A stretch of DNA of 64,000 nt from Denitrovibrio acetiphilus DSM 12809 (GTDB lineage Bacteria > Chrysiogenota > Deferribacteres > Deferribacterales > Geovibrionaceae). The notes beneath the pieces were generated by a model that was given only the letters and a program-made list of their open reading frames with translations, did no database searches and had not been told where the DNA came from. Below are positions 49,965 through 63,369 of this stretch, one piece after another (within the stretch, counting starts at the first letter, position 1; each line of letters starts with the position of its first letter). A program made the position numbers and the translations under genes. The DNA is taken from NCBI RefSeq assembly GCF_000025725.1, contig NC_013943.1:496001-560000 (forward strand). The letters run 5' to 3'.

Positions 49965-50038
49965 CGGGGTGTAGCGCAGGTTGGTAGCGCACCTGTCTTG
50001 GGAACAGGGGGTCGAAGGTTCAAATCCTTTCACCCCGA
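49965..50038 (+). tRNA. tRNA-Pro (anticodon TGG)
   Basis: 74 bases. Acceptor CGGGGTG pairs with CACCCCG, D arm GCGC/GCGC, anticodon stem CCTGT/ACAGG with loop CTTGGGA (anticodon TGG), T arm GAAGG-TTCAAAT-CCTTT. CCA is not encoded. An integrase gene starts the next feature on the other strand, so the tRNA 3' end is the probable attachment site and remains intact after integration. Confidence 0.95.
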
Positions 50039-50059
50039 TATGTAAGATCCTTTACCAGA

Positions 50060-50093: not shown

Positions 50094-51251
50094 CTATTTG
50101 TCACCGCTTTCTGCTTTTTTGGAGAAAAGGACACCTTTACGAGTGCCATCTTGACGGTTAATTCTGTTGCCATATTTCTTGAATAACATTTCCAGAGTTG
50201 AGTGACCGAGCATGTTTTTTATCCAGTTTAAATTCTCCCCTGCATCAATCATCATACAGGCGAAACTATGGCGCATCTGGTTAAGAATACGGAATCTCAT
50301 TTTAAGTGCTTTGAGACAAGGTTTATAGTAAGAATCAACGATGTTGTCTGTCTTTTTGAAGGGGTCTCCATAATGTGTTAATATCACCCACTCAGATTTC
50401 ATAAAGGTATATTTCTTGTGAGCTTCTAAGTATTCATCAAGCTCCGGGATAATATCTATAATTCTGTAATTAGATGTTTTAGTCGAGTCTTTCAATTTAT
50501 TTGCAGTCATTGTTCTTTGGACTAATATGGTATGTTTATTAAAGTCAATGTCTGACCACTTTAGAGCAAGCACCTCGCCTATTCTCATTCCAGTATAAAA
50601 TCCTATAGCATATAATACGGTTATGTGTGGGTGGTTCTTTTTTGTCCATTTAAGAATTTGTTCAACTTCACTTTTTTCAAACGGATCAATCTTTTCAGAC
50701 CCTATTTCAGGTTTGTCTATATATTCGGCAGAATTTTTTTCAAGAATGTCATCGGCAACACCAGCCTGTAATACGCTATATAGTACGCCTATATAATTAG
50801 ATATCGTCTTAGGTGATAATTCGGATTTCGAGATGTATGTCTGTATGTGAGATGGTTTAATTTGATTTAGCGGCATATTACCGAAAGTTTCACACAAAGC
50901 CTTGACAGCAGTTTTGTATGCTTTTGAAGTGGAGTATGCAATGTTCGGCTCTTTCAGGTCGTACCATTGCCAAGCATATGTTCCAAATGATACTTCACTT
51001 GAGACATTCGCAATTCCCAGTTTTTTAAGTGTTGCTGATTTTGGGAAGTAATCCTGATATCGAAAGCTGCTTTCATTAATTTTACGGTCAATCTCGCTTA
51101 CAAATGCTCTTGCTGCCTTGCAGTTTCTGCATTTGCAATCACTCTTTCCGGTGTCGCAATAGTATGGTGTGTTTTCGAACCTTTTAATGCTCAGGTAGTT
51201 AAATATAGCTTGTATTCTGTTTTTTTTGCCACGCTTTCTTATGCCGCCCAT
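50094..51251 (-). CDS. Tyrosine recombinase integrase
   Basis: 385 residues. The catalytic domain shows YTGMRIGEVLALKWSDI (first Arg), NQMRHSFACMMIDAGE (second Arg; the usual HxxR His is Asn, as in some phage integrases), LGHSTLEMLFKKY (His and the nucleophile Tyr). The SAM-like core-binding domain is about 85-190. The N-terminal arm domain contains a compact Cys cluster (CDTGKSDCKCRNC, about 32-44) that may bind zinc. It abuts the tRNA, the classic position for an element-encoded integrase. Confidence 0.93.
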   Translation of the reverse strand: MGGIRKRGKKNRIQAIFNYLSIKRFENTPYYCDTGKSDCKCRNCKAARAFVSEIDRKINESSFRYQDYFPKSATLKKLGIANVSSEVSFGTYAWQWYDLKEPNIAYSTSKAYKTAVKALCETFGNMPLNQIKPSHIQTYISKSELSPKTISNYIGVLYSVLQAGVADDILEKNSAEYIDKPEIGSEKIDPFEKSEVEQILKWTKKNHPHITVLYAIGFYTGMRIGEVLALKWSDIDFNKHTILVQRTMTANKLKDSTKTSNYRIIDIIPELDEYLEAHKKYTFMKSEWVILTHYGDPFKKTDNIVDSYYKPCLKALKMRFRILNQMRHSFACMMIDAGENLNWIKNMLGHSTLEMLFKKYGNRINRQDGTRKGVLFSKKAESGDK

Positions 51252-52361: not shown

Positions 52362-52562
52362 ATGTCTTTAAAGAAATTATTTAAGGAACTCATCATCACG
52401 GAATCTCAGAAGTCTTTGGCAGAACAGATTCCAATCAATGAGAAAACATTTTCTGCGAATCTTACAGGGCGTAGCCGTCCAACCATTCGAAATGCTCGTA
52501 AGTATATATTATTTCTAGAACGCAAAGGTATCAGGACATCTCTAAACGAAATATATGAATAA
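52362..52562 (+). CDS. Small Cro-like HTH protein
   Basis: 66 residues with AGGAGG before the ATG. The sequence SQKSLAEQIPINEKTFSANLTGR resembles a helix-turn-helix. It is divergent from the repressor, behind the shared operator, and overlaps the replication gene by eight bases. A Cro/CII-type role is likely from position. Confidence 0.6.
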   Translation: MSLKKLFKELIITESQKSLAEQIPINEKTFSANLTGRSRPTIRNARKYILFLERKGIRTSLNEIYE

Positions 52563-54930
52563 TAAATATCTTATCAATGAACCGCCACTGCTGATCCTTC
52601 CTTCACTTGCCAAATCAATTGGACTTAATGAAGGTATCCTTCTACAGCAGATTCATTACTGGCTTAGAACATCAAAACATGACAGGGGCGGTTATAGATG
52701 GATATATAATACTTATGCCCAGTGGCTTGAGCAGTTTCCTTTCTGGTCAGAAAAGACTCTCAGGCGGACTGTAAAGAGACTTGAGGATAAAGAGATTATA
52801 ATCTCAACCGTAGAATTCAATCAAAGCATTAATAAAACCAAGTGGTATAGAATAGACTACAAAGTGCTTGCAGACTATACAGGCTTTAGTGACGGCACAG
52901 ACCTGATTATTGATGAATATCCGCTTCTGTTTCAGCCGTCGCTTGCTGTTAGATATGGTCTGAACGAGGCTATATTTCTTCAGCAACTCCACTACTGGCT
53001 GAGCTACAGCAGCAAAGAGAGAGGAGGGTGCCTTTGGGTTGTGAATAAATACAAAACCTGGCTTGATCAGTTCAGCTTTTGGAGCGTTGATACTCTCAAA
53101 AGAACTATAAAAAGCCTCACCGAAAAGGAAGCTATAATTAACACTGATGAATACAATGATTCGGTGATCAGCAATTTACGCTGGCTGACAATTAATTACG
53201 ATAAATTTAATAAACCGTCAGTGCAGATTGACCAGTCGTCAGAGCAAAGTGACCTTTCGAGGGTGCAGATTGACCAGACGCTAGTGCAATCTGACCAGTC
53301 GCACGCTGAAAATATCGCGTCAGTGCAAAATGACCGGACGTGTGTGCAAAGTGACCAGTCGTCAGTGCAGAATGACCACATCGCCAGTGCAGATTGGCCG
53401 GATGGTCAGTGCAAAATGACCAGTTCTCATATATATACAGAGACTAATACAGAGACTACAGAGAATAAGGCACAAGAAGTCAATCTCGAAGAATCAGACC
53501 GTTTACAAAAAATGATAAAATTTGACTCCGAATCTGTAAAAGCGGCTTTTGATAAAGCTGTGAATTATTATTTAAAGCTTATCGACCCGCAAAAGACAAT
53601 AAGACGAAATGATAGCAGACTCGACGATATTCAAAACCTTATGGCTGAATACGGAGCCGATGCTGTTGAATTGATTTTTGACAGCGTAAAAAAATCTGAT
53701 TTTCTGTTAGGAAATTCTGGGAAGTTTATACCTTCATTCAGTTTCATTCTGAAAAACGCAGGTAAAATAATCTCAGGACAGTATGAATCAGAATCAGAGT
53801 CTGTGTATGAAAAAGCCCAGCGATGCTGTGAAGCACATAAAGATTGCTCTGTGGTCACTGATAATTATCCGGCAAGACCTCATTGCAGATACTGCGATCA
53901 GTTCATAAACAAAGATTTGCGGCCAAAGAAAACACAGGAAGAAATCGACGATGATATGTTTGAAGAGTGCAAGTCCAGAGCTTACTGCGTAGTTAAAAAG
54001 CTTCGTATGTCTACACCTTTTCCTTACTGCGGCAAATGCCCGAAAAATGATTTTGCTCAGAAAGAAAAAGGTGAAGCGGAGCTCATGAAAAAGGCTGCCG
54101 AATGTTATGCAAGCTGCAAAGGGTGCTGTTTTGTAAAGGTCATGGAGACAGAGTCGCTTGATTATTGCAAATTTTGCCCAGGGAACAGCACTGACCCGGA
54201 TGATTCATATAAAACTATTAAAGTCGACCCTTCGGACAGTGATGCTGTGTGGTCTGCTTCCTATGAATGGACAAGCAAGAGCGACAAAAAAATAAAGGGT
54301 TTTATAAAGGATTTTGAGATTTTCAGCACGTACTCTTTGAATGATTACATGCAGGAGGTTCTGATTGTCGTTTATGAAGTTTTGCAGGAACTGCTTGCGG
54401 AGTGTGACGGCAGCGTGCCTGTGAGCAAATTTGAAGAGCGCATATGGAATAATTTTCGAAACAGATTTACAAAAAGCATGCAGACTGTTCCGGCTATGAG
54501 AGATGTTTTTAAAGGAGGTAACAAGTCCGCATGTGTTTTTGAGGAATACACCGGAAATGAATTATCCGAAAATGATTCTGAGCCTGAAAATCGCCGTTTA
54601 AACGAAGAAATTATCAAAACACTGCTTGGGATACTCACCGTAAGGGAAGAGGAGGTTTTAGACTATGTTCTGGGCTTCACAGGTAGAGGGAAGCTGTCTC
54701 AGAGTGAGGCGGCGGAACTTATGGGCACCACTAGAGATAATGTGGCCGTTATACAGAAAAAGGCGGTAGATAAGATTACGGCATTTTGTAAAGAGCAAGA
54801 GATCGACGGCTCAAGCACGCTGGAGACCATCAAGTTTAAAATCCGCACCTATCAAAAACAGAAATTCAAAGACCCTTGTAAATACCAATTATTTGAGATA
54901 GGTAGTTTGATTAATCAGATTGCTGGATGA
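52555..54930 (+). CDS. Multidomain replication initiator with sigma-factor-like C-terminus
   Basis: 791 residues in one uninterrupted frame. Residues about 6-110 and 117-220 are a tandem duplication of a phage-type winged-helix domain (GLNEGILLQQIHYWL versus GLNEAIFLQQLHYWL). Residues about 223-290 are encoded by the iteron array. About 325-410 resembles the DnaD/DnaT-like helicase-loader end of phage replisome organisers (KKSDFLLGNSGKFIPSFSFI). Three Cys units, roughly C-x5/6-C-x12/13-C-x2-C, lie at about 424-448, 470-493 and 516-540. The last 200 residues look like sigma regions 2 and 4 (LTVREEEVLDYVLGF, LSQSEAAELMGTTRDNVAVI). I know no such combination; initiator function is well supported, the sigma-like part is inference. 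Confidence 0.8.
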   Translation: MNNKYLINEPPLLILPSLAKSIGLNEGILLQQIHYWLRTSKHDRGGYRWIYNTYAQWLEQFPFWSEKTLRRTVKRLEDKEIIISTVEFNQSINKTKWYRIDYKVLADYTGFSDGTDLIIDEYPLLFQPSLAVRYGLNEAIFLQQLHYWLSYSSKERGGCLWVVNKYKTWLDQFSFWSVDTLKRTIKSLTEKEAIINTDEYNDSVISNLRWLTINYDKFNKPSVQIDQSSEQSDLSRVQIDQTLVQSDQSHAENIASVQNDRTCVQSDQSSVQNDHIASADWPDGQCKMTSSHIYTETNTETTENKAQEVNLEESDRLQKMIKFDSESVKAAFDKAVNYYLKLIDPQKTIRRNDSRLDDIQNLMAEYGADAVELIFDSVKKSDFLLGNSGKFIPSFSFILKNAGKIISGQYESESESVYEKAQRCCEAHKDCSVVTDNYPARPHCRYCDQFINKDLRPKKTQEEIDDDMFEECKSRAYCVVKKLRMSTPFPYCGKCPKNDFAQKEKGEAELMKKAAECYASCKGCCFVKVMETESLDYCKFCPGNSTDPDDSYKTIKVDPSDSDAVWSASYEWTSKSDKKIKGFIKDFEIFSTYSLNDYMQEVLIVVYEVLQELLAECDGSVPVSKFEERIWNNFRNRFTKSMQTVPAMRDVFKGGNKSACVFEEYTGNELSENDSEPENRRLNEEIIKTLLGILTVREEEVLDYVLGFTGRGKLSQSEAAELMGTTRDNVAVIQKKAVDKITAFCKEQEIDGSSTLETIKFKIRTYQKQKFKDPCKYQLFEIGSLINQIAG
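53221..53426 (+). repeat. Nine-copy iteron array, candidate in-gene replication origin
   Basis: Copies of an 18-base core close to GTGCAAAATGACCAGTCG start at 53221, 53242, 53263, 53284, 53323, 53344, 53365, 53387 and 53409, that is every 21-22 bases (two helical turns) with one 39-base step. Copies 1-7 are in the gene's first frame, copy 8 in the second, copy 9 in the third, so DNA rather than protein is conserved. AT-rich sequence with CATATATATACAG follows directly and could be the unwinding region. Confidence 0.85.
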
Positions 54931-59233: not shown

Positions 59234-59738
59234 ACTCAACTAACCTTGGGCTATTGGCTTCGTACAAATAAATTCTATGAAAAACCTTCACTTCATTTTG
59301 AATCGCTTCCATAATCTTATTTCTCTCTGTAATGACGATCTCTTCCAGTGTTGCATAAGGGTTAAATATTCCAACGATTAATATACCAGAACCATATTTA
59401 GCATAAGTGTTACACATCGTTTGTTTGCAATATTTATTTAAAATGATCTCTTTTAATATTTCTCCATAGTTATCATCTGATGCATTTTTTACCTGACTTG
59501 GTATCGGTCTATGAGGAATATCATCAGCAACATAGCTAGTTATGCTCTCAGCAATCTCAGGACATAGAAATGCATCAGTTATTTCTATCCAAGTTTTATT
59601 GGCATTAATTTCGATTATTGCATCTGGAGGATCTGGCCTTTCCAAAACTTTAAAGCTATAGCCTTTGGATTCAATGTATATCCTGAACCGATTAATCACA
59701 GCTAGCTCATGCTCATCTTTTAATTCATTTCTTTTCAT
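59226..59738 (-). CDS. PD-(D/E)xK-like protein downstream of vapBC
   Basis: 170 residues from the ATG at 59738, which overlaps the vapC stop by four bases. PPDAIIEINANKTWIEITDA looks like a PD...ExK nuclease core in which the Lys is Thr. The rest, with SGILIVGIFNPYATLEEIVI, fits an alpha/beta fold. It could be a nuclease or an inactive relative added to the toxin-antitoxin operon. The family is not one I recognise. Confidence 0.55.
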   Translation of the reverse strand: MKRNELKDEHELAVINRFRIYIESKGYSFKVLERPDPPDAIIEINANKTWIEITDAFLCPEIAESITSYVADDIPHRPIPSQVKNASDDNYGEILKEIILNKYCKQTMCNTYAKYGSGILIVGIFNPYATLEEIVITERNKIMEAIQNEVKVFHRIYLYEANSPRLVEFI

Positions 59739-60136
59739 AACGTCACCCAATTCTCGACCTTGATACCTGATACACGGGAGAATTCACGTTCGTTATTGGT
59801 GACTATGATTGCGTTCATGGCTTTGGCGTGTGCCGCTATCGGGAGATCCATTGAGCCTATGGTATTGCCGTTCTTCTCAAGCTCTGCACGGATGATGCCG
59901 TATTCATAAGCCGCAGCATCGTCAAATGGCAATATCTCCAGAGGTGATAGAAACATCGCCAGAGCGTCGCTGTTTTGCTCCACACGCTGGCTTTTGTTTA
60001 CACCGTAATGTAATTCCGCTGCTGTGATGCTTGAGATACACAGCTCAGAAATATTGAAAGTTTTGAATTTCTCGATGATCTCCGCAGGTCTGCGCTTTAT
60101 AATATAAATACAGATATTGGTATCCAGCATATACAT
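59735..60136 (-). CDS. vapC: VapC-type PIN-domain toxin
   Basis: 133 residues. PIN residues are in order: MLDTN (first Asp), AAELHYGV (Glu), MDLPIAAHA (third acidic) and VTNNEREF (Asn/Asp region). These proteins cut tRNA or rRNA. The gene follows the antitoxin by two bases. Confidence 0.93.
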   Translation of the reverse strand: MYMLDTNICIYIIKRRPAEIIEKFKTFNISELCISSITAAELHYGVNKSQRVEQNSDALAMFLSPLEILPFDDAAAYEYGIIRAELEKNGNTIGSMDLPIAAHAKAMNAIIVTNNEREFSRVSGIKVENWVTL

Positions 60137-60674: not shown

Positions 60675-61901
60675 TTATCTTGTATGTTTTCGAATTATCT
60701 GGTCAATCGTTTTAATTGTGCTGTCGCTAATGTTCAGACTGGATGCAGTATTTTTCCATTTCATCGCTGATGCTATAACCTGGTCTATAATTCGTTCTGG
60801 TTTCTTTATGTTGGCTTTTTTTCCTAATTCTTTCAAATGTGATATCGCTGGTTTAAGGCTCTCACCGGCAACAGTCATGCTCTGATAGCCGTTCGGTCCT
60901 GATGAAAATGTCAGGTCATAGGCAGGAGAAAGTTTCCATTCCATATTTTGATATAGAAATGAAAAGTTTTTGCTGTGATCATCCCTGTTGTGCATTATTA
61001 CGTTGAAGCATGCTAGTCTGAATGCGGCCTCCACTTCTCTCATGTCTTTTGTGAGTGCCTGTGTGACTTTCAGCAGGTCGGAATAATCCAGTGATGGAAA
61101 CCTGTAATCTGAGTGGATAAGTCCGCAAAGAGAATGCATATGAATACGTCTGCCGTTATCCCTGTCGAATCTCTGCACTCCGAAATAACTTCCGGAAACT
61201 GTGTCGAAAAGATAAGTCTCAGGCATATTTATTCCGGAATCTTTAGCTATGACGCTGTATGCATATTCTATTCTGCCGGAGTCGGCATCATCGAATCTTG
61301 AGTTAAACTTAATCAGCCAGTCCTCGTAACCATTTGGATGGTTATCTGTTCTGGACATTATATGCTTTTTGTCAGGACTTACCTTTGCAGTGATTTTTGG
61401 TCTGGCACCACCTGATGAACCAGCAAGCTGCTTCAGCTTCAGCAGTGCGTCGTCTCCTTCGCCTTCCAAAATCTGCTGCATCTCTTTTGCAAGTTTCATA
61501 AGGTCAAGATTCTCAGCATGTTGGACATCTTCTGAATACTCAGGTTCGTATGACAATGCCCCCATTCCGTATTTACCGACGTGGCTCAGCCTGTCCAACG
61601 GTGTAAGTAGGTGATGGCTTATCCCATATTTAGCTACCTGACGGTCAAGAAGCATTCTGCCCCAGCCGTCAGGCAGACTGTCATTGAATATACCGTGCAG
61701 ACCATCAAACGCATTAGTATCAGCAGATACAGCATTTGGCTGCAGCGACAGTTTGAAAGGAGACAGTTCAAAACCCTCAGCTATAAAGTCAGGGGAATAT
61801 TCAAACCAGATTTTTCTATCTCTGGAGGCAAGTCTGCCCATATGATATTTTTTATCAGCATGATAAAAAACATTAAGCAGTTGTGTGGGCTTATGATTCA
61901 T
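60675..61901 (-). CDS. hipA: HipA-family serine/threonine kinase toxin
   Basis: 408 residues. GSSGGARPKITAKV is the Gly-rich loop, DWLIKFNSRFDD the ATP-binding region, FNVIMHNRDDHSKNFSFLY the catalytic loop and LSPAYDLTFS the metal-binding motif. HipA kinases inhibit aminoacyl-tRNA synthetases and cause growth arrest. Its ATG overlaps the hipB stop (ATGA). Confidence 0.92.
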   Translation of the reverse strand: MNHKPTQLLNVFYHADKKYHMGRLASRDRKIWFEYSPDFIAEGFELSPFKLSLQPNAVSADTNAFDGLHGIFNDSLPDGWGRMLLDRQVAKYGISHHLLTPLDRLSHVGKYGMGALSYEPEYSEDVQHAENLDLMKLAKEMQQILEGEGDDALLKLKQLAGSSGGARPKITAKVSPDKKHIMSRTDNHPNGYEDWLIKFNSRFDDADSGRIEYAYSVIAKDSGINMPETYLFDTVSGSYFGVQRFDRDNGRRIHMHSLCGLIHSDYRFPSLDYSDLLKVTQALTKDMREVEAAFRLACFNVIMHNRDDHSKNFSFLYQNMEWKLSPAYDLTFSSGPNGYQSMTVAGESLKPAISHLKELGKKANIKKPERIIDQVIASAMKWKNTASSLNISDSTIKTIDQIIRKHTR

Positions 61902-62194
61902 TTCTTTCGTCCTCTCTTTCTTGTCTTATCCTGCGATAAGATCGCATCCAATGATTTTAGCTGCTCTTGTTTATCAAATAAATTTGCAAAATTATCCAGT
62001 AAGTTCAGTGCAAGACAAAGCTTAAGAAGCGACTCTAAAGAAATCTGTCCTGTTGATTCAAACTTCTTCAATGTGCCGAGGCTGACCCCAGATCGTTCGG
62101 CAAGACCTTCCTGGGTGAGGTTTTTTTCCAGACGGGTGTTTCTCAATGAGTTTCTGATATATTCAGCCATCTCTTCTAAAGTTATAAAAGTCAT
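61898..62194 (-). CDS. hipB: HipB-like XRE antitoxin
   Basis: 98 residues from the ATG at 62194 (AGGG eight bases upstream). The HTH is KNLTQEGLAERSGVSLGTLK; the C-terminus is basic (KTRKRGRKK). An open TTG at 62224 would lie almost at the predicted transcript start. It should repress the operon through repeats at 62193-62203 and 62234-62244. Confidence 0.88.
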   Translation of the reverse strand: MTFITLEEMAEYIRNSLRNTRLEKNLTQEGLAERSGVSLGTLKKFESTGQISLESLLKLCLALNLLDNFANLFDKQEQLKSLDAILSQDKTRKRGRKK

Positions 62195-62262
62195 TATAGT
62201 ATCCCTAAAAGGCAAAATATTCAACTTGTAGATATTATAGTATCTATTATTTGAAGTGTCAA
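62193..62262 (-). promoter_or_regulatory. Consensus promoter and operators of hipBA
   Basis: On the minus strand TTGACA (62257-62262), exactly 17 bases, then TATAAT (62234-62239). ATTATAGTATC is repeated at 62234-62244 (over the -10) and 62193-62203 (over the hipB start), 41 bases apart, about four helical turns. Confidence 0.88.
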
Positions 62263-62412: not shown

Positions 62413-63369
62413 ATGATAGGGATAGATGTAGGGTATGGAGATGTGAAAGCCGTCTATATGGATGTCGGCGAACTGAAATATTTCAAGCTGCCGACGGCGG
62501 TAGCTTATGCGCCGATGAACAGCATTGACATTGCTGACGAGGCTGAGGAGAGATACAGCTTTCAGGGACGGGAATACATAGTCGGCGAATCAGCCAGATT
62601 CGGAGCTTTTTCAACGAGGAGCTTTGATTTCCTGAAAAAGTATGCTCCGCTTTTTATCCATCACACACTTAAAGTGCTTAGGCTTGTGCCGTCATACGTG
62701 GCGACTGGCTTGCCGCTTGGTCTCTTCAACAGAAAAGATGAGATGACCAAAGAGCTGACAACTGCACAGGTGGACGGCAACACAATCAAGGCAGAATTCA
62801 GTATGTTCCCGCAGGCAGTGGGCATCCTGCTCGATTACCGGATGGATGATGCAGGCAAAGTGAAAGCCGATACTGCCAAAAACGGCATCGTATCAGACAT
62901 AGGGTTTAACACCATAGATGTACTTTGTTTTGAGAAGGGGACGGCTATAAGGTCGGACGCTAAAACGCTGGACAAGTTCGGCATATCTAAGATCGTGCTG
63001 GAACTGGTGGAACTGATTAACAGAGAACATGGTATACAGCTTTCTGATCAGGAAGCGAAAGATGTTTTCCTTGCAGGACGTATGAATGTTTACGGCAACA
63101 AAATAGACCTGACTGAGGCCATTAGGAACATCACAGAGATGTATTTTGACGAAGTGATGCATAATATCAGAAGCCTTTGGGACAAACGTCTCCAGAGGGC
63201 AGATTTACTGTTGCTCGCTGGCGGAGGCGCAGTTACTATTGCCAAATATGTTCCTTCTGAATATGCTAAGATTGTCAAAGTTCCCGAACGGTCAGAGTTT
63301 GCGAACGCCAGAGGCTATTTGAAGGCTTTAATGGCGAAGCAAGAACAGGCTTTAAAGGCGGATAAATAA
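62413..63369 (+). CDS. ParM/StbA-like actin-family partition ATPase
   Basis: 318 residues with AAGGAGG before the ATG. Actin-fold motifs: MIGIDVGYGDVKAVY (phosphate 1), VSDIGFNTIDVLCFE (phosphate 2) and LLLLAGGGAVTIA (adenosine). ParM-type filaments push plasmid copies apart. Its presence in a chromosomally integrated element points to a plasmid-like phase. A terminator separates it from the RHH gene. Confidence 0.88.
   Translation: MIGIDVGYGDVKAVYMDVGELKYFKLPTAVAYAPMNSIDIADEAEERYSFQGREYIVGESARFGAFSTRSFDFLKKYAPLFIHHTLKVLRLVPSYVATGLPLGLFNRKDEMTKELTTAQVDGNTIKAEFSMFPQAVGILLDYRMDDAGKVKADTAKNGIVSDIGFNTIDVLCFEKGTAIRSDAKTLDKFGISKIVLELVELINREHGIQLSDQEAKDVFLAGRMNVYGNKIDLTEAIRNITEMYFDEVMHNIRSLWDKRLQRADLLLLAGGGAVTIAKYVPSEYAKIVKVPERSEFANARGYLKALMAKQEQALKADK

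Follow-up and report, generated by a model that had tools for sequence, protein, structure and literature searches.

Is a repeat that runs through a coding sequence kept for the peptide it encodes or for the DNA itself, and if for the DNA, what does that DNA do? The question is raised by a gene in a stretch of 64,000 nucleotides from the genome of Denitrovibrio acetiphilus DSM 12809 (contig NC_013943.1, positions 496,001 to 560,000), which is referred to as the window and whose numbering is used below unless stated otherwise. The open reading frame (ORF) at 52555–54930 encodes a predicted replication initiator, and a 25-nt unit similar to GTGCARNNTGACC was detected in it in nine copies by a repeat search (53217–53429). 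On the evidence presented here, the array is very probably both the site where an integrative conjugative element of 76.6 kb starts its replication and the site bound by the protein encoded there.

The start-to-start steps of the nine iterons are 21, 21, 21, 39, 21, 21, 22, and 22 bp. An earlier note on this DNA had described nine copies at steps of 21–22 bp; the copies and the steps stand, except for the single step of 39 bp. The 39-bp gap holds at most one badly degenerate copy, recognized by eye (GCTGAAAATATCG at 53305) and picked up neither by the repeat search nor by the motif scan. Tandem Repeats Finder reported the array as 53216–53424 with a period of 21 and a score of 137, the top of the 30 rows for the window. 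The features, all on the forward strand, are:

53217–53429 (+), iteron array, nine copies (repeat search, Tandem Repeats Finder, cross-frame test)
53221–53233 (+), core of iteron 1, frame 0
53242–53254 (+), core of iteron 2, frame 0
53263–53275 (+), core of iteron 3, frame 0
53284–53296 (+), core of iteron 4, frame 0
53305–53317 (+), candidate for a degenerate iteron within the 39-bp gap (by eye)
53323–53335 (+), core of iteron 5, frame 0
53344–53356 (+), core of iteron 6, frame 0
53365–53377 (+), core of iteron 7, frame 0
53387–53399 (+), core of iteron 8, frame +1
53409–53421 (+), core of iteron 9, frame +2
53430–53460 (+), post-array stretch with two copies of the 12-bp direct repeat ATACAGAGACTA, candidate unwinding element (repeat search; presumed function)

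Iterons 1 to 7 share one frame and encode the peptides VQIDQS, EQSDLS, VQIDQT, VQSDQS, VQNDRT, VQSDQS, and VQNDHI, while iterons 8 and 9 are translated as ASADWPD and GQCKMTS. The ORF reading is the same as that given earlier, with seven VQ(N/I)DQS-like copies in frame and the eighth and ninth each shifted by one base. A 225-nt stretch with the array contains 95 pairs of 12-mers that lie in different frames and share 10 or more identities, compared to none in the 225 nt before it and two in the 225 nt after it. Shuffling the codon order of the array (n = 200) gave 0.38 such pairs on average and never reached 95, so that a chance origin of the repeats was rejected. In a 21-nt register, nine of the 21 columns are identical across all copies, eight of them within the 13-nt core; the variable positions are in the linker and in the middle of the core. 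The AT content is 48% in the array, 70% in the next 30 nt, and 59% in the whole ORF.

Relatives of the gene were compared in two sets. The first comprised 88 loci, namely the best 80 of 468 relatives from viral contigs, the window itself (L083), a relative from genome G022 of the same bacterial family (L084), and six named phages; shared 12-mers reduced it to 43 nonredundant loci, the window included. The larger set, obtained after five further scans and with the window and L084 left out, consisted of 242 loci (233 from viral contigs, many of which were caught repeatedly, six named phages, and three genome contigs). At least two copies were present in 233 of the 242, giving 82 loci after near-identical domains had been removed by a rough rule and 71 with at least three copies. 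The iteron criterion was 6 bits in the scan of 43 loci, 8 bits in the analysis of AT content and wobble positions, and the core plus within-locus similarity in the larger set. Two candidates were dropped: viral contig L082, retrieved with the exact pattern of a window iteron pair, has long ORFs that are unrelated by eye, and L085 of genome G019 gave a weak, partial match.

Cross-frame repetition reached p ≤ 0.01 in 30 of the 43 loci (200 shuffles, floor 0.005), with 0.02 and 0.025 in two more. It was insignificant in 11 loci (L003, L004, L009, L013, L015, L022, L025, L026, L032, L086, and L090); the repeats of L015 sit in the upstream control stretch. An expectation-maximisation motif, the best of 60 random starts (the six best having similar likelihoods) and later extended to caGGtCAAAaTGacCcgaTC, identified 173 leave-one-out sites in codon phases 59/64/50, where about 10 in total were expected from codon shuffles. 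Three codon phases are used in 28 of the 43 loci, two in 12, and one or none in 3. The earlier note had suggested motif discovery of this kind, and had named repeats confined to codon phase as the result that would speak against selection on DNA. What was found is a set of bases that persists in three phases while the peptides differ with frame (GQNEP/AQNEP, LKMSQ/VKVT, and SNCT/SKRT are examples from relatives).

The 82 nonredundant loci of the larger set gave the same picture: their 320 iterons, mostly 21–25 bp apart, fall into frames 133/77/110, and three frames are used in 46 loci, two in 29, and one in 7. Among the gaps between iterons in the 43-locus set, 58 measure 23 bp and 32 measure 22 bp, and the frames of relatives rotate because such a pitch is indivisible by three. 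By the same logic, the lean of the window towards one frame (7 of 9 copies) follows from its 21-bp pitch, a multiple of three. L084 leans likewise (5 of 6 copies), and of 43 relatives with at least four copies, 4 put at least three quarters of them in one frame. Wobble and non-wobble positions of the core are conserved about equally, with mean information contents of 1.44 and 1.49 bits. The frame rotation and the equal conservation together support the view that the repeats are kept as DNA, whichever frame they occupy, in line with the claim of selection on DNA made in the earlier note. In 34 of 40 loci the 60 nt that follow the array are richer in AT than the respective ORF; on average, AT content is 61.5% over the 90 nt preceding the array, 64.8% over the 30 nt directly downstream, and 57.5% over the ORFs.

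Two observations on the relatives may be added here. Many of them, such as L055 and L057, contain an ENTTEITTE-like peptide repeat right after the iterons, a stretch that might serve in unwinding or as a linker. One relative from an alphaproteobacterial metagenome-assembled genome (L106:2995–4098) has a C-terminal part that by eye resembles the N-terminal domain of DnaA, with a ParA-like gene upstream.

The iterons follow the plan NNNN-CAAAATG-NNNN, a dyad whose arm sequence varies between loci. In the 40 of 43 loci with at least two sites, left and right arms are reverse-complementary at 112 of 160 positions; shuffles of the right arms had a mean of 70, and none of 5000 reached the observed value. 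The corresponding figures for the larger set are 237 matches of 328 against a shuffled mean of 139 and a maximum of 161 (2000 shuffles). Both controls shuffle arms among loci and so break the kinship of the loci.

The arm bases covary with the protein. Mutual information was calculated between 98 usable winged-helix columns and each arm base for the 71 loci with at least three copies. Residue 67 ranked first for arm base 1, the one adjacent to the core (excess 0.68 bits; runner-up column 0.21), and for arm base 2 (0.58 bits; runner-up 0.19). Residue 70 was on top for arm bases 3 and 4, in the former case with 0.31 bits and residue 67 as runner-up (0.20). Among 971 pairs of loci with domains at least 50% identical, base 1 differs in 13% of those with the same residue-67 class versus 75% of those with different classes, one class being S, A, P, T, V, I, and M pooled, a grouping chosen after seeing the table; without grouping, residue 67 is still first of 97 columns (0.39), followed by residue 65 (0.30). 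At base 1, half-sites with S, A, P, T, V, or I at residue 67 have T in 82 of 86 cases; those with D67 (4 loci) have G in all 8, those with N67 have C in 7 of 10, and those with R67 have C or A in all 22, while the 16 half-sites with K67 have T in 10 cases and A in 5. At base 4, a purine occurs in 72 of 74 half-sites with K70, and T occurs in 46 of the 54 with R70. Both residues are located at the start of a helix predicted by AlphaFold2 (66–78), the position that corresponds to the recognition helix of winged-helix domains. When the half-sites of a locus were predicted from loci less than 70% identical to it, its own half-sites obtained a mean percentile of 0.88, and the score was above 0 in 61 of 71 loci. 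Such covariation lends good, if indirect, support to the idea that the array is read by the protein.

The initiator is composed of the following parts:

52555–54930 (+), initiator gene, 791 aa, with two winged-helix domains, iteron-encoded linker, cysteine-rich middle, and sigma-70-like end
52558–52875 (+), winged-helix domain 1, residues 2–107 (best stretch of phrog_6493, AlphaFold2)
52753–52755 and 52762–52764 (+), recognition-helix residues K67 and R70 of domain 1 (covariation column)
52909–53202 (+), winged-helix domain 2, approximately residues 119–216 (second phrog_6493 stretch, AlphaFold2 at lower confidence)
53089–53091 and 53098–53100 (+), recognition-helix residues D179 and K182 of domain 2 (covariation alignment column)
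53824–54183 (+), cysteine-rich region, most cysteines also present in L084 (alignment)
54337–54777 (+), sigma-70-like C-terminal region, residues 595–741 (TIGR02937 and PF04545, both below curated cut-offs; phrog_351)

The phrog_6493 profile matches the protein in two stretches (E 7.4e-64), and the two winged-helix domains directly precede the array in the gene. The AlphaFold2 model of residues 1–222 has a mean predicted local distance difference test score (pLDDT) of 77.8, domain 1 being modelled better than domain 2. Foldseek returned nothing for this model at E ≤ 0.001. A sequence search of the PDB with the winged-helix part from the window gave no match, and one with the sequence of a relative gave six, all at chance level. 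The best rows of a fold comparison were 4pql, 4pt7, and 5kbj, which we take to be N-terminal domains of RepA_N proteins, with Z of 9.9–10.7 over 106–108 residues and a root-mean-square deviation of 4.0–4.6 Å, near the Z of 8–9.8 scored by unrelated winged helices.

Of the 43 loci, only the window and L084 have two winged-helix domains; one was found in the other 41 (tblastn span). The arms of the iterons match at one of four positions in the window and L084 and at two or more in the other 38 loci of this set. The code obtained from single-domain loci places domain 2 (D179, K182) on the left half and domain 1 (K67, R70) on the right half in all nine window copies. Summed over the copies, this arrangement scores +48 bits and the opposite one −109, and placing domain 1 or domain 2 on both halves scores −53 or −8, respectively; because the copies depend on each other, the sums overstate the weight. 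Two results limit this picture. Asymmetric iterons were exclusive to tandem domains in the first set, a rule that failed in the larger one, where 5 of 71 single-domain loci with at least three copies match at no more than one arm position (8 of 82 overall), some perhaps being badly detected arrays; asymmetry is therefore not a mark of tandem domains alone. In L084, the assignment of domains has a log-likelihood ratio of 0.8 bits and holds in 3 of 6 copies, with domain 2 on both halves scoring alike. The idea that the half-sites of L084 are swapped relative to the window was dropped, as the trained code does not decide this locus. Reading the initiator as a covalent heterodimer thus appears strong for the element in the window and is neither supported nor refuted by L084. 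A broader proposal, to which we would give somewhat less than an even chance, is that a two-residue code ties these initiators to origins in their own genes, and that the duplicated domain of two conjugative elements forms a covalent heterodimer on an asymmetric iteron, whose halves are free to diverge into private origins. If so, the initiator from the window would be the clearest case, since the domain for each half can be predicted there from the code.

The C-terminal region resembles a sigma-70 factor and misses the curated scores: TIGR02937 gave E 2.9e-7 and 30.3 bits (cut-off 42.9), and PF04545 gave E 9e-4 and 19.2 bits (cut-off 24.1). A sequence search of the PDB with the C-terminal half yielded weak matches to sigma and helix-turn-helix proteins, and the C-terminal part modelled without an alignment folded poorly, at a pLDDT of 40.7. 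This half had no match in the phage or plasmid collections searched; among 50 genomes of the phylum it was found in its own genome, in G022, and weakly in G024. The occurrence of a sigma-70-like end after a cysteine-rich stretch invites the guess of a coupling between origin and transcription.

The element that carries the gene begins at a tRNA-Pro gene (49965–50038), its left end. Its features in the window include:

50017–50039 (+), 23-bp attachment repeat of the left end, at the tRNA-Pro 3' end
50094–51251 (−), tyrosine integrase
62413–63369 (+), actin-like plasmid partition protein

The right copy of the attachment repeat lies outside the window (genome positions 622646–622668), 76,629 bp from the left copy. 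The element encodes the F-type conjugation proteins TraE, TraK, TrbI, TraC, TraU, TraF, TraG, TraH, and TraN, a coupling protein, and an ArdC-like protein. The integrase, the flanking direct repeats at a tRNA gene, the conjugation genes, and the coupling protein identify the carrier as an integrative conjugative element of 76.6 kb, not a phage. As the initiator gene lies within it, the predicted origin would belong to a conjugative element. In genome G022, a related element retains initiator and partition protein along with those conjugation genes that fall within the stretch compared, and its array has six detected sites. The cargo includes genes for BrxP, BrxC, and PglZ of a BREX system (L096:3458–12138, corresponding to 87458–96138 on the scale of the window). 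A PIN-domain protein (59735–60136) and a HipA-like kinase with its helix-turn-helix partner (60675–62224) are likely toxin–antitoxin cargo. Further near-copies of the attachment repeat, with 1–2 mismatches, are present in the genome (L100, L101, and L102); the sequence downstream of L100 is nearly the same as the right end of the element and is perhaps the end of another one.

Starting from the repeats, their frames, the dyad, and the covariation, which were observed directly, we infer how binding, melting, helicase loading, and origin activity may proceed. Each iteron would be a dyad around CAAAATG, each half of which is read by one winged-helix domain, with residue 67 reading arm bases 1–2 and residue 70 reading arm bases 3–4. 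Relatives with a single domain would use two identical subunits to read their dyads, most of which are near-symmetric. In the element studied here, the domain would have been duplicated within one chain and diverged, so that one protein could read both unlike halves, domain 2 on the left (GTGCA) and domain 1 on the right (GGTCA). Binding to nine evenly phased sites, about two helical turns per step, may bend or wrap the array; by analogy with lambda O, the AT-rich DNA beside it would then melt and a helicase be recruited. The DNA could be conserved in any frame that the pitch dictates because the linker tolerates very different residues.

Several observations weigh against this scheme. The AT-rich stretch that the earlier note saw after the array is indeed richer than the ORF as a whole; the 90 nt before the array, at 69%, equal it. 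The GC skew of the element is uninformative, with a minimum near the left end, and neither a relaxase nor a helicase loader was recognized among the proteins scanned, which represent part of the ORFs of the element. With the pooled motif, no more than one site was detected in 3 of the 43 loci. For arm base 4, residue 70 ranked first with 0.63 bits and was followed by columns with 0.34, 0.33, and 0.32, and relatedness therefore plays a part there. More generally, the loci used for covariation are kin and contribute two halves each, for which the ranking of columns corrects partly. Repeats are also mostly in-frame in 80alpha ORF20 (3 cross-frame and 92 in-frame pairs) and in Rep of TP901-1 (15 and 56), a phage with its origin within rep; frame rotation is therefore not general to embedded origins.

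Other explanations would read these data differently. The array might be a feature of the protein, a VQxDQS peptide repeat grown by in-frame slippage with DNA likeness as a secondary effect. Such growth would fit the seven window copies in one frame at 21-bp steps, the five of six copies in L084, and the 7 of 82 relatives with all detected copies in one frame; yet iterons 8 and 9 preserve the DNA in other frames, relatives rotate theirs, wobble positions are equally conserved, and arm bases covary with recognition-helix residues, which leaves this explanation highly improbable. An autoregulatory operator or an incompatibility and copy-control locus, with replication starting elsewhere, is a less remote alternative, given that the iteron arrays of Rep_3 plasmids are described as serving copy control too (PMC5703833). 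The array is nevertheless placed about 660 bp into the gene, away from its start, AT content rises above the ORF mean after the array in most relatives (the DNA before it being AT-rich too), and the same layout works as an origin in lambda, SPP1, and pSK41 (PMC7466680, PMC6316719, PMC5703833). We regard this explanation as unlikely.

To the same small degree, the array could be a relic of the origin of a phage ancestor, in an element that is now copied only along with the chromosome or through conjugative rolling-circle replication. Integration at tRNA-Pro agrees with a relic, as does the fact that no helicase loader was recognized beside the gene among the proteins scanned. A decayed origin is difficult to reconcile with nine of 21 array columns identical in nine copies, a 791-aa ORF that is still open, and the retention of the initiator, the partition gene, and a six-site array in the G022 element.

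An origin bound by the product of its own gene, the reading we prefer, would have several consequences. Protein and target are co-inherited when the sites lie in the gene, and each genome supplies a matched pair of domain and site, so that specificity, incompatibility, and origin may become predictable from sequence in an initiator family that occurs in phages of many hosts. The tandem case suggests a route from a symmetric to an asymmetric site, and a conjugative element that has a partition gene of its own is seen to carry a phage-type replication module. What looked like an oddity of sequence would become a testable rule. Among the open-access titles and abstracts listed, in searches not worded for the code, none reported family-wide frame-rotating iterons or a recognition code. 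As far as this literature shows, the following appear to be new: the rotation through three frames across the family, the code of two residues, an initiator that combines tandem domains with asymmetric iterons, and the embedded origin in a conjugative element.

Origins embedded in initiator genes are already known from lambda, SPP1 (oriL), and pSK41, and one has been proposed for 80alpha. SPP1 oriL lies in gene 38 (PMC6316719). The origin of 80alpha was proposed to lie within ORF20 since this gene could not be complemented in trans (PMC5499656), and the 80alpha record annotates a putative rep_origin there. Both 80alpha and TP901-1 differ from the window in their mostly in-frame repeats and in having no CAAAATG-type motif. 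Rep of pSK41, a RepA_N theta plasmid, resembles the initiator studied here in having origin boxes inside the gene and a winged-helix N-terminal domain; its Rep boxes are central in rep, and the linker encoded by the origin is dispensable (PMC5703833). The window protein had no match to Pfam RepA_N (PF06970) up to E 1.

The closest relatives are phage initiators of phrog_6493, annotated as 'DnaD-like helicase loader', for example those of Bacillus phage vB_BhaS-171, Staphylococcus phage phiIPLA88, and Escherichia phage mEp460_4F5. They share with the window the winged-helix family, the CAAAATG core, and the position in the gene, but mostly have one domain, more symmetric iterons, a pitch of 22–23 bp, and ORFs of about 240–370 aa.

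The comparison with lambda O made in the earlier note was borne out at the level of layout. The window protein had no match to Phage_rep_O (PF04492) up to E 1, whereas lambda O itself gave 5.7e-36, and the pooled motif found one weak match each in lambda O, 80alpha ORF20, and TP901-1 Rep without picking out the lambda iterons; the likeness of lambda lies in the plan and not in the motif matrix. Lambda has four iterons, as opposed to nine in the window, and the array of the window is longer, as had been stated; Stx phages have six (PMC7466680), and the relative L041 has eight under a different counting. The lambda dyads are nearer to symmetry and belong to a phage, not to a conjugative element. 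Dimers of O bind the iterons of gene O, which are imperfect inverted repeats, and unwinding requires the AT-rich tract next to them (PMC7466680). In lambda as in the window, the iterons lie within the initiator gene and occupy all three codon phases (0, 2, 2, and 1 for the four annotated lambda copies), each follows a dyad plan (CCCTC-AAAAC-GAGGG in lambda), and a match to phrog_678 is common to the two proteins.

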